A model generated the notes under the pieces. It had not been told where the DNA came from, searched no databases, and saw only the letters and a list, made by a program, of their open reading frames with translations. The position numbers and the translations under genes were made by a program. 64,000 bases of DNA. Source: Methanomassiliicoccales archaeon (GTDB lineage: Archaea; Thermoplasmatota; Thermoplasmata; Methanomassiliicoccales; UBA472). Location of the stretch: positions 1 through 64,000 of the forward strand of contig JAJRAK010000032.1 in the NCBI GenBank assembly GCA_028682895.1, written 5' to 3'. Positions 20,230 to 28,110 of this stretch are shown here, piece after piece (position 1 is the stretch's first letter; each line of letters opens with the position of its first letter).

Positions 20230-20530
20230 CGTCGGGAGAGGGAGGGCGACTGACGGTAGGGCCTCCGAGCCCAGCTGAGGAAGGTCCCTCCTCCATGAGA
20301 AAGGTGGACCGCGAAAGTGGTTTGGCGAGAGCCAAGGCAAGGGCACAGAAACGGCACAGCCCCGGGGTAGCATGAATCGCTTGGCGAGGACGTTCCCCGA
20401 GGATCTGGTGAAACGGCGACCCCCCACCGGAGCAAGCCCAAACAGCCGGAATGACAGCTCAGGACCGGCGGGTAGGGCGCGCAGTTGAATGTTGCCTGAA
20501 ACAGAAGGGGGCCTACTACCCTCACCCGGC
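20230..20530 (+). ncRNA. rnpB: RNase P RNA, archaeal type A
   Basis: Catalytic RNA that removes tRNA 5' leaders. The conserved segments appear in order: GAGGAAGGTCCC near 20276 (CR I, 5' strand of P4), GGTGAAACGGCG and GGAGCAAGCCCAAACAG in the middle, and ACAGAAGGGGGCCTAC near 20500 (CR V, 3' strand of P4). GGGAGAGGG near 20234 can pair with CCCTCACCC near 20519 as P1. The ends are estimated to within about 5-10 bases. No protein-coding frame fits; the short open frames here are by-products of GC-rich structure. Confidence 0.9.
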
Positions 20531-20628
20531 ACCTGGCACGCTATATCAGCGGCCATCTTTCAATTTTTACGCTCACCGCTCAGGGCAGGTACAGTAACTC
20601 ACTCTTGTTTATTCCTTCGAGGGGAAAA

Positions 20629-21090
20629 ATGAAGGAGAACGAAGGCAAGTTGATAATGATCAAGGAAAGGGTACCGCTCAGGACGCATGAGATGCTTAGG
20701 CGCGAGCTGCGCAAAGGGCGTAAGGCCCTTTACATATCGAAGCATTCGCCCAGGCAACTGGAGATGCAGTTCGAGCCGGTCAAGGAGAACATGACCGCCA
20801 TGTGGCTGTCCCCCCGCCCGGACCAGGATTGCATCCCGCCTATGAACCTTCAGAAGTTCGAGGACAGCATCAAGGAGTTCCTGGACGAGAACGAGAGCCC
20901 TATAGTGGTGCTGAACGGGCTTGATGTCCTATACATGTGGAACGGCATCCGCCCGGTCATAGATTCGATCAATCGCGCGCGCGGCACATTGGGAAAGGCC
21001 GAGTTCTTCGTGAGCCTCGACCCAAACAACTATGCCCCTGTGCATGTCGGTGCCCTGGAGAAGATCTCGGACGAGGTCGTGTGCACATAA
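20629..21090 (+). CDS. DUF835 domain protein
   Basis: Single-domain DUF835 protein of 153 residues. Core features: RKALYISKHSPRQL, then MWLSPRPDQDCIPPMNLQKF, and the strand SPIVVLNGLDVLYMWNG followed by FFVSLDPNNYAP. DUF835 is an alpha/beta domain frequent in Thermoplasmata and Thermococcales, often attached to PAS or receiver domains; the fold resembles a degenerate RecA-like core without a P-loop and the role is thought to be regulatory. ATG 20629 is chosen over a TTG at 20605 because GAGGGG lies 5 bases upstream. It follows the RNase P RNA directly. Confidence 0.8.
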   Translation: MKENEGKLIMIKERVPLRTHEMLRRELRKGRKALYISKHSPRQLEMQFEPVKENMTAMWLSPRPDQDCIPPMNLQKFEDSIKEFLDENESPIVVLNGLDVLYMWNGIRPVIDSINRARGTLGKAEFFVSLDPNNYAPVHVGALEKISDEVVCT

Positions 21091-23873: not shown

Positions 23874-24404
23874 ATGGTCGCTAGTGCCAGGCTTGAAAGC
23901 GTCAATGATGGATACTACGCTATCGACGTCCATTCAGACTATGGCCTGTTCACGCTGGACCATGGGCGTATCTACATGATCATAAACGAGCGCCTGGACA
24001 AGACGCTCTCTCTTATAAACGCCATGGCCAGCTCGGGCAAGGACACGCTGTGCGTGAGCCGGCTCCACCCGGACATGTTAAGGGAGCGATATCCGCTTCA
24101 GGACATACGCGCCATATGGTTGAGCCAGTCCGGTAATGGACCGAGGATATCGCCTGAACAACTGGACGATATCGTGATGGAGATTTCCGACTTCGTTCAG
24201 AAGAATAAGAACTCGGCCGTCGTTCTGGACGGCCTTGAATACATTTCGCTGTTCACGGATTTCCATACCCTGAACATATTCTTTGAGGAGCTGAACGACG
24301 CTGTCATGGCGTCGCGATCAATCCTCTTGATACCAGTAGACCCGCGTCTATTTGACCCTTGCCAGCTGGCTCGTCTGCGGCGATATGTTGAGATCCTGCA
24401 TTGA
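23874..24404 (+). CDS. DUF835 domain protein
   Basis: 176 residues. The DUF835 core spans about 30-170: GRIYMIINERLDKTLSLI, DTLCVSRLHPDML, IRAIWLSQSGN, SAVVLDGLEYISLF and SILLIPVDPRLFDP. It has a short N-terminal extension compared with the paralogue at 20629. GAGG lies about ten bases upstream of the ATG. Its final 101 bases overlap the convergent DUF835 gene at 24304. It shares a promoter element with the STAND regulator. A signalling or regulatory role is likely from the family's usual contexts; no biochemical function is known. Confidence 0.8.
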   Translation: MVASARLESVNDGYYAIDVHSDYGLFTLDHGRIYMIINERLDKTLSLINAMASSGKDTLCVSRLHPDMLRERYPLQDIRAIWLSQSGNGPRISPEQLDDIVMEISDFVQKNKNSAVVLDGLEYISLFTDFHTLNIFFEELNDAVMASRSILLIPVDPRLFDPCQLARLRRYVEILH

Positions 24405-24864
24405 GCTTGACGAGATCGATTTGTGGAAAGCAGCTGCAGAACTTCCTGAGGTCCCTTTCCTCGAAGGTGAGCGGGTCGATCGAGATCATCATGCTCCCAT
24501 CGGCCTGGACCAACATCTTGTCTATATCCTGCATGGCGTTGATGATTGCGTTCATATCGTTCCACAGCAAGAGGTACTCCAGTCCATCCAGGAAGAATTT
24601 CCTGCGCCCTTCGTCGATCTCTTTGCGCACCTGTTTGACCAGTGTGGAGATGTTGTTAGGGGGTAGGGCGGACTTGTCCTTCATCTTACTGAGCCAGTAG
24701 AACTGTGCGTTCATAAGCCCGAACTTCTCTGTTACGTACTCGGGATGCAACCTGGTTATACATACGCCATTCTCTCCGTGCAATATCTTTGAGAACACAG
24801 CATAGCTGTTTCGGGGATGGCCTTCCGTAAGTAGCGAGACATTCGTGCAAACATATCCTTCCAT
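24304..24864 (-). CDS. DUF835 domain protein with antisense-encoded tail
   Basis: 186 residues. DUF835 core at about 10-150 (GVCITRLHPEYV, QFYWLSKMKDKSALPPNNI, KFFLDGLEYLLLWND, SMMISIDPLTFEERDL), the same block order as the plus-strand neighbour. The last 35 residues lie beyond the domain and are read from the strand opposite the neighbour's 3' end, so they look like read-through acquired after loss of an earlier stop. The ATG at 24864 has AGGAGG seven bases upstream; a longer frame lacks this. A TATA box and the 13-base element TAGCATGCTCAAA lie upstream at 24906-24931. Confidence 0.8.
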   Translation of the reverse strand: MEGYVCTNVSLLTEGHPRNSYAVFSKILHGENGVCITRLHPEYVTEKFGLMNAQFYWLSKMKDKSALPPNNISTLVKQVRKEIDEGRRKFFLDGLEYLLLWNDMNAIINAMQDIDKMLVQADGSMMISIDPLTFEERDLRKFCSCFPQIDLVKLNAGSQHIAADEPAGKGQIDAGLLVSRGLIATP

Positions 24865-24905
24865 TAGCTTCGCCTCCTTTTGTCGTATTGAGTTTGTTTT
24901 AACGA

Positions 24906-24931
24906 TATATAAAGGGAATTTGAGCATGCTA
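24906..24931 (-). promoter_or_regulatory. Promoter with TAGCATGCTCAAA element (DUF835 gene)
   Basis: On the minus strand TAGCATGCTCAAA (24931-24919), then 5 bases, then TTTATATA (24913-24906). The same 13 bases and 5-base spacer precede the TATA box of the octapeptide-repeat gene at 27959-27986. The position upstream of the TATA box suggests an activator site. Confidence 0.7.
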
Positions 24932-24966
24932 CATCGCGCTCATGAGATTCCGATATCTGGCGATGT

Positions 24967-24990
24967 TCGGTCAAAGAATATTGATATGTA
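24967..24990 (+). promoter_or_regulatory. Promoter of the STAND regulator; element TCGGTCAAAGA
   Basis: TCGGTCAAAGA (24967-24977) followed at once by the AT-rich ATATTGATATG. The same element occupies the same place in the promoter of the DUF835 gene at 23874. Confidence 0.45.
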
Positions 24991-25007
24991 AATGTCAATA
25001 ACGTGGC

Positions 25008-27695
25008 GTGTCTCTCAGGACGGGCAGGTCACTGTTGACGATGAAGGAGAGGGTGTTCCTGCATCTGCTCCTGCAACAGAGATTCGCCATGGACTCCGAT
25101 TCGCCCAAGTCCGTGACACAGGACGGCATAGCGCAGGCAGTGGACGTAGGTCGAAACAACGTGGCCAAGGTCCTGGCCGAAATGTCGAAGGAAGGATCTC
25201 TCGATATTTTCAGCAGACATGTGAAGGGGCTGCCTAGCGTCCGTAAGGTCTATTTCCTTACATTGAAAGGGATCGAGGAAGCGAAGGATATCAAGCTGGA
25301 CATAGAGAGCACCATGGTGGACGTCATCGATCTGAACGGGGACGTCCATCAGGACGAGATCGGACGTTTAGGCAACTACCTCCCAAAGCGCTATGACCTG
25401 TTGGAGCTGGTCATAGGCATTTCCGAAGGGAGCATCGATTGCCGCAACTTCCATGAGAACAAGATGCGCGAGGAGCGCAGATACGTGGATTTCACCGATA
25501 AGAAGCCAGCTGTAAGGACGTTCTTCGGAAGGGACAAGGAGATCACTTCCCTCGTGGGTCTGCTGGACTCTCCCAGCAAACGGATGATCATCATCAATGG
25601 CATCCCGGGAATAGGGAAGACGACCTTGCTGGCGAAATATGCGCAGCAGGTACGGGACCGCACGAACGTGTTCTGGTACAAGGTGCATGAATGGGCCAAC
25701 CTGAAGGCGCTGTTGCGCCCGATGGCCGAGTTCCTCTCTCAAACAGGACGGAAGAACCTTGAATGGTACCTCAACCAGACCGAGGCCCCGTTGGTCAGTG
25801 AGGTCGCCCATATCTTGGAAGCGGACCTCAGGGAAGTGTCCGCGCTCCTGATATTCGACGATGTGCATAAGGCCGACCCTACCGTGCTGGAGTTCCTGGG
25901 AGCGCTACTGAGCACGCTAGAGGGACTTGAGAGCGTGAGGGCGGTGTGCACAGCCAGGGAGCTGCCATCTTTCTATTCCCGAAGCGTCGTGTTCAACGGC
26001 CTGGTGGAGGAGATCAACCTCGAAGGCCTGGACATCGAGAGCAGCAATCAGATGATGCGCTCCCGCGGTCTGACGAATGGCGATTTCAAAGAGATATACC
26101 GTGTCACCAACGGACATCCCCTTTTCCTGGAACTCATCGACGACCCCAAGCTGGCGCTGGGTAAGAACATCCGCATATTCATCGAACAAGAGGTCTTTTC
26201 CCGCCTGGGCGTTGGGGAAAGAAAGATCATGAGCATCGCTGCGGTCTTCCGATACCCGGTATTGATGGATGCGTTCTTCATCATGGAAGAAGAGATCCAG
26301 ATGGCCGCAGGGCTGGACAAGGTTGAGATGGAGGGAGCGGACTATGCGGTCAGCTATGAGATCGTGGATTCGCTCCTTTCCAAATCGATCATATACGAGT
26401 CGGTGGGACGGGCGATAGGCATGCACGACCTGCTGCGTGAATTTTCCCTTTCCAGGATGACCCCCAGGCAAAGGCGGGTATATCATAAGGCCGCGGCCAG
26501 GTATTACCTGCAGGACAGTTCCGCACCAGCCAGGGTGGAGGGGCTCTATCATTCCCTCATGGCTGGTGACGTTCAAACGGCCATTTCCATAGCGGTCGGT
26601 GACGGTCGCTCCATCATCAACAAGGGGTACGCCACCCAGTTCGCCCCTTTGCTCGATCACCTGGCAAGGGACATGGGGGCCTCAAACAGGAAAGACCTCA
26701 TTGACATCGGTCTCCTCCGAGGGGAGGTCTTGTACCTCCAGGGAGAATGGGACATGGCCTTGGACGTCCTGCGGTCACTGCTATTGAGCCCTGGGGATCT
26801 TGATGTCAGGATGCTATGTGAGGTCAACCGAATGATCGGTGTTATCCATCTTAACCGTGCGGAGTACGATAAGGCCACGTACCACCTGGTCACTGGATAC
26901 GATCTGGCCCTGTCCACTGGAGATCTTCCTACTCAAGCGGACATATCATATGATATTGGAGGATTGATGGAACGCCAGGGGCGCAACGCCGAGTCGATTG
27001 AGCAGTTCCAAAAGGCAAAAAAGATCGCCTTGGCATTGGGGGATGATCTAGCACTGGGAAAGGCGCTCTATGGGCTTGGACGAGTTCATACGATCATGTC
27101 CGAACATGAAGATGCCATCCTCTGTAAAAAGGAGGCGCTGGCAATCCTGGAAAGACGTGGGGACACTATAATGATGGCCAAGGTCTGCACGAGCATCGGC
27201 AAGGACCTGTATTATATCGGACAAAAAAGAGAGAGCATGGAATTCATGGAGCGCGCGACCGAACTGGCGAACGCCATAGGTGACCTGAATACCGTGGGAT
27301 ATGCATTGAATAATCTTGCTGGGTGCAAGATGGACCTGGGAGAATTGCATGCGGCTGAAGAGATACTTCAACGGTGCACGACCATAGCACAGAAGCTGAA
27401 CGATCCGCTCCTCATAGCCTCATCACATTTCCACCGTGGACATTACTATGAACAATGCAATAAGTGGGATAGTGCTAAGGTGGAATTTGATAAATCAATA
27501 GTGATCATCCGCGATCTGGACATACCTATCCGTTCGATCCAGTGGCTAATTGACGTTGCTGACATCTACATAAAAAATGATGAAGCGAAAGAGGCATTAT
27601 CGCTCTTGAACGAAGCAAGTGATCTTGCGAATGTCATAGGACAACGGAGATTTTTAGAGCAGATTAAAGAAAAAATGGAAAAATTGTGCACGTAA
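25008..27695 (+). CDS. Winged-helix / STAND ATPase / TPR regulator
   Basis: 895 residues. N-terminal winged helix-turn-helix (about 12-105: TQDGIAQAVDVGRNNVAKVLAEM), a linker, then a STAND-type NTPase with Walker A GIPGIGKTTLL (near 198-208) and Walker B ALLIFDDVHKAD (near 280), a winged-helix-like subdomain, and about seven tetratricopeptide-like repeats from residue 620 to the end. The layout is that of MalT/GutR-like signal-responsive transcription regulators: ligand or partner binding by the TPRs would control ATP-dependent oligomerisation and DNA binding. Some STAND proteins act in phage defence, but a DNA-binding N-terminus argues for regulation. GTG 25008 or ATG 25041 could be the start. 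The 3' third is more AT-rich. Confidence 0.82.
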   Translation: MSLRTGRSLLTMKERVFLHLLLQQRFAMDSDSPKSVTQDGIAQAVDVGRNNVAKVLAEMSKEGSLDIFSRHVKGLPSVRKVYFLTLKGIEEAKDIKLDIESTMVDVIDLNGDVHQDEIGRLGNYLPKRYDLLELVIGISEGSIDCRNFHENKMREERRYVDFTDKKPAVRTFFGRDKEITSLVGLLDSPSKRMIIINGIPGIGKTTLLAKYAQQVRDRTNVFWYKVHEWANLKALLRPMAEFLSQTGRKNLEWYLNQTEAPLVSEVAHILEADLREVSALLIFDDVHKADPTVLEFLGALLSTLEGLESVRAVCTARELPSFYSRSVVFNGLVEEINLEGLDIESSNQMMRSRGLTNGDFKEIYRVTNGHPLFLELIDDPKLALGKNIRIFIEQEVFSRLGVGERKIMSIAAVFRYPVLMDAFFIMEEEIQMAAGLDKVEMEGADYAVSYEIVDSLLSKSIIYESVGRAIGMHDLLREFSLSRMTPRQRRVYHKAAARYYLQDSSAPARVEGLYHSLMAGDVQTAISIAVGDGRSIINKGYATQFAPLLDHLARDMGASNRKDLIDIGLLRGEVLYLQGEWDMALDVLRSLLLSPGDLDVRMLCEVNRMIGVIHLNRAEYDKATYHLVTGYDLALSTGDLPTQADISYDIGGLMERQGRNAESIEQFQKAKKIALALGDDLALGKALYGLGRVHTIMSEHEDAILCKKEALAILERRGDTIMMAKVCTSIGKDLYYIGQKRESMEFMERATELANAIGDLNTVGYALNNLAGCKMDLGELHAAEEILQRCTTIAQKLNDPLLIASSHFHRGHYYEQCNKWDSAKVEFDKSIVIIRDLDIPIRSIQWLIDVADIYIKNDEAKEALSLLNEASDLANVIGQRRFLEQIKEKMEKLCT

Positions 27696-27704
27696 AGTGC
27701 ACCA

Positions 27705-27914
27705 TTAGATCGAGATCATGTGGGGATCCAATAATGGGATCGAGTGGGGGTCCAGCAGTGGGATCGAGTGTGGATCGAGAAGCGGAATCGAATGAGGGTC
27801 CAGCAGTGGAATGGAGAGCGCTCCAGAGATGGACGTCATTCCGAACATCATCATGCACGCGGAGATGGCAAACAATGCCACAACACCGATCAATACCTTG
27901 CTTCTAATCATCAT
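27705..27914 (-). CDS. Small secreted protein with four SIPLLDPH repeats
   Basis: 69 residues. The N-terminal hydrophobic segment (KVLIGVVALFAISAC) can serve as a signal peptide; I-S-A-C fits a lipobox, so it may be a lipoprotein cleaved before Cys20, or signal peptidase may cut after SGA. The mature part is four tandem copies of SIPLLDPH and a short tail MISI. Codons differ between copies (CTG CTG, CTT CTC, TTA TTG for Leu-Leu; GAC or GAT; CAT or CAC) and every difference is synonymous, which argues for selection on the peptide. It has a GGAAGG ribosome-binding site and a TATA box. It converges with the STAND regulator, 9 bases apart. Confidence 0.7.
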   Translation of the reverse strand: MMIRSKVLIGVVALFAISACMMMFGMTSISGALSIPLLDPHSIPLLDPHSIPLLDPHSIPLLDPHMISI

Positions 27915-27958
27915 CGAAATACCTTCCCTTTACCTAGTGAGACTTGTTTCGACTTGTG

Positions 27959-27986
27959 AATATAAAAACGGTGTTTGAGCATGCTA
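27959..27986 (-). promoter_or_regulatory. Promoter with TAGCATGCTCAAA element (octapeptide-repeat gene)
   Basis: On the minus strand TAGCATGCTCAAA (27986-27974), a 5-base spacer, then TTTTTATATT (27968-27959). Element and spacing match the DUF835 promoter at 24906-24931. The predicted transcript start near 27937 leaves a leader of about 25 bases. Confidence 0.7.
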
Positions 27987-28110
27987 TCGGAACGTTTTAA
28001 TAGTATAAAATATAAAAATGATAATAGATACTATCTGGCTACCTAATTTATTCAATTCGTTGAATGCTACGTATCATTTATTATCATGAACTGATTGGTG
28101 TGATGTTGAA

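Follow-up and report, generated by a model that had tools for sequence, protein, structure and literature searches.

A STAND-TPR regulator, a palindromic promoter site, and a multi-copy peptide precursor: a probable peptide autoinduction regulon in Methanomassiliicoccales

Organization of the locus

The 64-kb window analyzed here (positions 1 to 64,000 of contig JAJRAK010000032.1 from a Methanomassiliicoccales archaeon) contains a gene for a STAND-type regulator (25008..27695, plus strand) that is flanked by two minus-strand genes sharing the same 13-base promoter element, TAGCATGCTCAAA. The regulator combines a winged helix-turn-helix (wHTH)-like N-terminus with an AAA_16/NB-ARC-type NTPase core and a TPR superhelix (residues ~486-894). 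One of the minus-strand genes (24304..24867, with an ATG start codon after AAGGAGG) codes for a 187-aa DUF835 protein (PF05763, 4.8e-23). The other (27705..27914), which is convergent with the STAND gene, codes for a 69-aa predicted secreted peptide precursor that consists of a signal sequence, four tandem SIPLLDPH units (27720..27815, minus strand), and the tail MISI.

The initial annotation placed the 13-base element upstream of both minus-strand genes, and exact copies are indeed present there on the minus strand, at 24931-24919 (24919..24931, DUF835 promoter) and 27986-27974 (27974..27986, precursor promoter). They are the only two in the window, as had been stated for its promoters, and no others appear even when up to two mismatches are allowed. 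In each promoter, the terminal CAAA of the site is followed by five bases and then by a TATA box, TTTATATA for the DUF835 gene (24906..24913, minus strand) or TTTTTATATT for the peptide gene (27959..27968, minus strand). The "ATA" of both boxes lies at an identical offset from the site, and this register is held across relatives, where TTTAaATA is conserved at that offset in the DUF835 promoter; the exact five-base spacing reported earlier therefore holds. This location directly upstream of BRE (the TFB recognition element) and TATA would fit activation. An additional A/T box, TATTAAAA, is found upstream of the site in the peptide promoter (27995..28002, minus strand).

Conservation of the site and its palindromic form

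The complete genome assembly (1,659,807 bases) carries three exact copies of TAGCATGCTCAAA, compared to ~0.05 expected from base counts, and no one-mismatch copies, so that the element is not frequent, which was the question put by the genome scan proposed in the initial annotation. The third copy, described below, is also a promoter-type site. The wider distribution of the element was assessed in 147 genomes of the order, with the reversed pattern as a control. The exact 13-mer was detected in 19 of 31 close genomes (reversed control, 0 of 31) and in 25 of the 147 (reversed control, two hits, both from one genome). In the alignment of the close genomes, nearly all copies are followed at a constant distance by TTTAAATA, TTTATATA, or a similar sequence, and the element is kept wherever the gene order is kept, which bears out the second check proposed earlier. 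Within the genus, the STAND gene is flanked by the two sites, which share a strand and are in most cases separated by ~3 kb.

Site variants across the order reveal the palindrome GAGCATGCTC, which is often complete in the DUF835 promoters of relatives and is what one would expect if an HTH protein bound as a dimer or oligomer. With the relaxed form of the site, [T/G]AGCATGCTCA, a scan of the order for [T/G]AGCATGCTCA-N7-TATA returned 61 sites versus 0 for the control. When sorted by the downstream gene, site-plus-TATA promoters precede the DUF835 gene in 30 genomes and the repeat peptide gene in 32, with constant spacing. A TATttAAa box upstream of the site is conserved in the peptide and small-RNA promoters (see below) but not in the DUF835 promoters; its position roughly mirrors that of the TATA box across the palindrome, and it is possibly part of a divergent promoter or a second contact. 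The initial annotation had remarked neither on the palindrome nor on the third target or the putative multi-copy peptide signal discussed below. In one genome (G013, contig 27, L031:3087), a third exact copy of TAGCATGCTCAAA with a TATA box precedes a gene of the response-regulator/PAS type; in family f18, it is genes of this type that share the palindrome (see below).

The STAND regulator and its co-occurrence with the site

The 895-residue STAND protein matches the Pfam domains AAA_16 (1.3e-12), NB-ARC (2e-5), ATPase_2, and TPR and has the P-loop GIPGIGKTT, with the NTPase core joining the sensor and effector domains. Its closest sequence match among solved structures is PH0952 (6mfv, 2.4e-25), and it scores 27 bits against the MalT equivalog model PRK04841.1, far below the cutoff of 537. 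Of the proposed winged-helix/STAND/TPR identity, the STAND and TPR parts are well founded, and the winged helix is indicated by sub-threshold Pfam matches only: the N-terminal ~100 residues resemble mainly wHTH families (HTH_Crp_2, Rrf2, TrmB, and PadR). The HTH residues GRNNVAK are invariant across seven aligned genus-level STAND sequences. An AlphaFold2 model based on this seven-sequence alignment is confident for the TPR superhelix only (residues ~486-894, pLDDT ~90), which comprises about 11 TPR helix pairs. In Foldseek comparisons of this region, PH0952 ranks first by E-value, with LGN/Pins next, and pheromone-bound Rap proteins have the highest target-normalised TM-scores among the matches listed (0.70-0.74).

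Full-length STAND orthologs are encoded in 32 of the 147 genomes. The site is present in 31 of these 32 and in 4 of the 115 genomes without an ortholog (Fisher p 2.6e-26, ignoring shared ancestry); when the single family that lacks both is left out, the counts are 31 of 32 versus 2 of 13 (p 8.7e-8, likewise ignoring shared ancestry). Since the gene and the element have been gained and lost together, including at a target on another contig, the STAND protein, already proposed in the initial annotation, appears to be by far the best candidate for the factor that binds the site.

A putative small RNA as the third target

The third genomic copy of TAGCATGCTCAAA is on an unlinked contig, between a truA-like gene and a gene for an AK6/Fap7-type adenylate kinase, and other families of the order show the same truA-like/site/AK6 arrangement. 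As AK6 is widespread (131 of the 147 genomes), its upstream region provides a good unlinked test of the association between site and regulator. The site, together with a conserved leader, was found upstream of AK6 in 28 of the 30 STAND-positive genomes inspected, which rules out noise as the explanation of the third copy, and the site was absent in 18 of the 23 STAND-negative ones; the remaining five are G007, G021, G044, and G145 (64-90% complete) and G012, which has a degenerate site.

Between the site and AK6, the conserved leader consists of an unpaired motif, GGGGAAGGUCCRYGGGG, a stable hairpin whose sequence varies with compensatory changes, and a T-run. In those site-less genomes whose sequences were read, the leader is missing as well, except in G012, where both site and leader are degenerate. 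In the simplest reading, the leader would be a gene for a small RNA that carries its own terminator; an Rfam covariance-model search returned no family match for this RNA. AK6 itself is disfavored as the target because the conserved leader, with its GGGGAAGGTCCRYGGGG motif, hairpin, and T-run, intervenes and because, G012 aside, the site-less genomes that were read lack the leader too; read-through into AK6 is possible.

A second conserved structured RNA (GGAGYCCCCG...GGTGGGGAAGTTGGAGAAGGTCCACGGGGACTCC), seen at L217:1430-1530 and in L219-L224 of other genomes, carries the GGAGAAGGTCCACGGGG motif in common with the small-RNA target and likewise has no Rfam match. It occurs in most non-f2 genomes of the order, including some that have no STAND gene.

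Peptide precursors in Methanomassiliicoccales

Precursors across the order consist of a signal sequence and 1-12 copies of a heptapeptide and are convergent with the STAND gene in nearly all loci. The "octapeptide-repeat protein" of the initial annotation is a precursor of this kind; the core of the unit is a heptapeptide, and in nearly every locus it is carried on a precursor with a signal sequence. The core is IPLLDPH, in four copies, in the window and IPGIDPH, in 4-12 copies, elsewhere, and other lineages have IPFLDPH, IPFIDPH, IPGTDPH, IPGNDPH, IPGNSPH, IPMSDPH, IPVNDPH, IPGLEPH, LPGMTPH, or LPGVGPV. Units are identical in 26 of the 28 multi-unit precursors, and the unit type varies between lineages. 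A check of 32 precursors for bias of the unit-counting regular expression revealed one clear near-miss unit, IPAADPL in G031.

In the window, pairwise comparison of the four heptapeptide cores gives 33 synonymous and 0 nonsynonymous differences, and unit pairs within precursors in general show 894 synonymous versus 4 nonsynonymous ones (0.59 versus 0.0009 per site, an extreme contrast even though related copies are pooled). Because the units have diverged synonymously at the DNA level, an explanation of the repeat as selfish or structural DNA is ruled out. Seven precursors have spacers between the units (G018, G020, G022, G025, G028, G032, and G033), and in the G022-G025 comparison the units are identical at 27 of 28 positions, compared to 19 of 39 for the spacers. 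Given this excess of synonymous differences and the conservation of units alongside diverged spacers, the unit peptide itself is under purifying selection, being uniform in each genome and different between lineages, as would be expected for a signal and its receptor. In G015 (L043), the array leaves the frame after three IPGTDPH units, and the DNA repeat seems to continue; this could be either a frameshift or an assembly error.

Related loci elsewhere in Thermoplasmata

STAND homologs with 24-33% identity are encoded elsewhere in the class, with convergent genes for secreted proteins at their 3' ends. Among the first 20 such loci analyzed, four show an exact peptide duplication at the end (GLGKQDDPE, GIGQREDPN, PLGIGMRDGPDGWNPG, and DLRGEQIDPD, each present twice); exactly duplicated 8-mers outside such precursors in these loci are mostly in antisense frames or very long open reading frames. 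The class-wide scan for the site led independently to further STAND/precursor loci, such as that in G198, where GAGCATGCTC is present both in the promoter of the precursor and at the 5' end of the STAND gene. Members of family f18 (G432, G318, G282, G404, G199, G394, and G444) combine the STAND gene and the GAGCATGCTC palindrome with a convergent precursor whose C-terminal repeats are sometimes imperfect (DDPPLDYDYA, GPHPADNYAW, GPHPPGDTPW, and others), and in most of these loci the palindrome lies between the precursor gene and a divergent response-regulator gene. In G352, palindrome and precursor are found on a short contig.

Discussion

Starting from the site, its three targets, their co-occurrence with the STAND gene, and the purifying selection on the units, all of which are supported by the sequences, we infer binding of the site by the STAND protein, activation, processing and import of the peptide, and its role as the ligand. 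The system is probably a peptide autoinduction (quorum-sensing-like) regulon, in which the STAND-TPR protein would sense the processed peptide and activate its own precursor gene, the DUF835 gene, and the small RNA. The small gene would encode a secreted precursor with identical units of 7-8 residues; following export and cleavage, the free peptide would build up, be imported, most likely through an oligopeptide transporter of the OppA type, and bind in the groove of the TPR superhelix. Candidates for such a transporter exist, in that OppA-family (SBP_bac_5) proteins occur in 24 of the 31 genomes searched. With ligand and ATP, the STAND protein would open and oligomerize, as in MalT, allowing its winged-helix domains to contact the palindrome [T/G]AGCATGCTCA directly upstream of BRE/TATA. 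Units activated in this way would be the peptide precursor (positive feedback), the DUF835 protein (an inactivated KaiC-like protein), and the small RNA between truA-like and AK6. On balance, the loci of the class as a whole would represent the first case in Archaea of a genetically encoded peptide-pheromone system, made up of a STAND-TPR protein, a GAGCATGCTC operator, and a convergent multi-copy precursor. Under such a class-wide interpretation, the peptides would have diversified as IPxxDPH, GLGKQDDPE, GIGQREDPN, DLRGEQIDPD, DDPPLDYDY, and GPHPPGDTPW, and the system would act through a response regulator or an inactivated-KaiC protein, joined in Methanomassiliicoccales by a regulatory RNA.

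Several observations speak against this interpretation. The link between regulator and ligand is drawn from the pairing of their genes, the TPR architecture, and the similarity of the fold, and TPR superhelices resemble each other, with LGN/Pins outranking Rap by E-value. The N-terminal HTH is sub-threshold in Pfam, and the isolated N-terminal domain gives a low-confidence model (pLDDT 56) whose PadR/MarR-type neighbors have E-values of at least 0.015. The OppA-family proteins are not specific to STAND-positive genomes, and their presence follows the system only loosely. There are also exceptions in the distribution: the small-RNA locus of G013 and of G146 has no site, despite the STAND gene in both genomes, and G007, G012, G021, G044, and G145 have a site with no STAND ortholog detected. 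Three of the latter (G007, G021, and G145) are incomplete genomes with the site close to a contig end. G012, with its degenerate site, is 99% complete. Among the precursors, that of G011 has no clear signal sequence, that of G003 carries a single unit, and the units in family f18 are not all identical.

A chance repeat or artefact is extremely unlikely as an explanation of the 13-mer. Two copies in one window, taken in isolation, can arise by chance, but chance recurrence is ruled out by scans of the genome, the order, and the class that were controlled with the reversed pattern, including the three genomic copies against 0.05 expected and the 61 order-wide sites against 0 in the control. Binding of the site by another transcription factor, with the STAND gene merely co-inherited with the targets, would accommodate the weak wHTH assignment and the fact that STAND binding to the site is a prediction. 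It is quite improbable, however, as the STAND gene is the only one that is always between or beside the sites, the site at the unlinked locus is retained or lost along with it, STAND homologs with 24-28% identity in other families are again accompanied by the palindrome, and the GRNNVAK residues of the HTH are invariant over the seven aligned genus-level sequences.

The same regulon and regulator could also operate with a STAND protein that senses a metabolite or cell state and a repeat protein that serves as a secreted antimicrobial, metal-binding, or cell-surface effector. STAND regulators with TPRs have MalT as their archetype, and its inducer is a sugar (PMC6468293); in addition, secreted peptides made in multiple copies can act as toxins, and the His residue of xIPxxDPH could bind metal. 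Such an arrangement nevertheless appears unlikely: precursor and STAND gene remain convergent neighbors throughout a class in which the peptides have entirely different sequences, a pattern better explained by a receptor paired with its ligand than by an invariant metabolite. The arrangement is further disfavored by the identity of the units within a precursor, by the absence of His from the units of several lineages (GLGKQDDPE, LPGVGPV, and DDPPLDYDYA), and by the fact that no immunity or export gene was seen to be conserved beside the precursor. Given that STAND NTPases are frequent in anti-phage defense, and that the protein has a trace match to Avs4 in NCBIfam (nothing more), it might instead be an Avs/NLR-like defense sensor, with the repeated peptide serving as an alarm or a decoy and not as a signal to the population. 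This is very improbable in view of the DNA-binding-type N-terminus with no nuclease, the shared promoter sites, and vertical conservation over an order.

The proposed autoinduction circuit works like the sensing systems of the RRNPP(A) family (Rap-Phr, PlcR-PapR, NprR-NprX, and AimR-AimP of Gram-positive bacteria and phages), in which the gene for a secreted precursor likewise adjoins that of a cytosolic TPR regulator. Other shared features are the 7-8-aa peptide unit, the HTH-type regulator (sub-threshold in the present case), and a TPR model that superposes on pheromone-bound Rap. It falls outside that family, because its proposed receptor is a STAND NTPase and it occurs in archaea. The RRNPP(A) definition specifies a core of five or nine TPRs with an optional N-terminal HTH and no NTPase domain, and the study that gives it covers Gram-positive bacteria and phages (PMC12700828), whereas here an AAA_16/NB-ARC domain is present between the HTH and ~11 TPR helix pairs, the site belongs to archaeal TATA promoters, and a precursor can have up to 12 identical tandem units. 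MalT of Escherichia coli and PH0952 of Pyrococcus horikoshii share the NTPase core and TPR sensor, and PH0952 is both the best structure-solved sequence match and the best fold match of the STAND protein. STAND opening and oligomerization are described for MalT (PMC6468293). Unlike MalT, which senses maltotriose, the protein described here likely has a peptide ligand.

Precursors of the yeast alpha-factor type consist of a signal sequence followed by repeated identical pheromone peptides. The archaeal precursors share this layout, with diverged spacers in some lineages; they differ in that no known processing sites were identified in them, in belonging to another domain of life, and in that the proposed receptor is cytosolic, not membrane bound. 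Quorum-regulated small RNAs are exemplified by Vibrio Qrr. Similarly, the putative RNA described here is under a promoter site common to putative signaling genes and consists of a conserved unpaired motif followed by a terminator-like hairpin; unlike Qrr, it shares a motif with a second conserved RNA.

Archaeal population-sensing signals are almost unknown. Cell-cell signaling in archaea is represented by the carboxylated N-acyl homoserine lactones (AHLs) of a methanogen, and the passages on archaeal quorum sensing in a 2026 review describe the nature of the signals as unknown except for AHL-type compounds in a methanogen, with no mention there of a peptide system (PMC13419125). No archaeal peptide pheromone or RRNPP-like system was found in the open-access library searched, and hormone-like peptide signaling between cells has likely not been described in Archaea before. 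If the proposed circuit is correct, it supplies the exact peptide sequences together with their receptor, the operator in the DNA, and three target genes. Peptide signaling through TPR receptors would then extend beyond Gram-positive bacteria to a system switched by a STAND NTPase, suggesting ligands for many orphan archaeal STAND-TPR regulators and tying peptide signaling to a small RNA and to the archaeal KaiC-like signaling network.

DUF835 has been characterized as a KaiC-like domain of archaeal signal transduction that has been inactivated (PMC5847659), a description that makes the DUF835 protein a plausible output of the circuit. The window contains two more DUF835 genes, one at 23874-24404 (plus strand), which is convergent with the target gene at 24304-24867 (minus strand) and overlaps its reading frame by ~100 bases, and another at 20605-21090. 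An archaeal RNase P RNA is encoded at 20234-20527 (plus strand).

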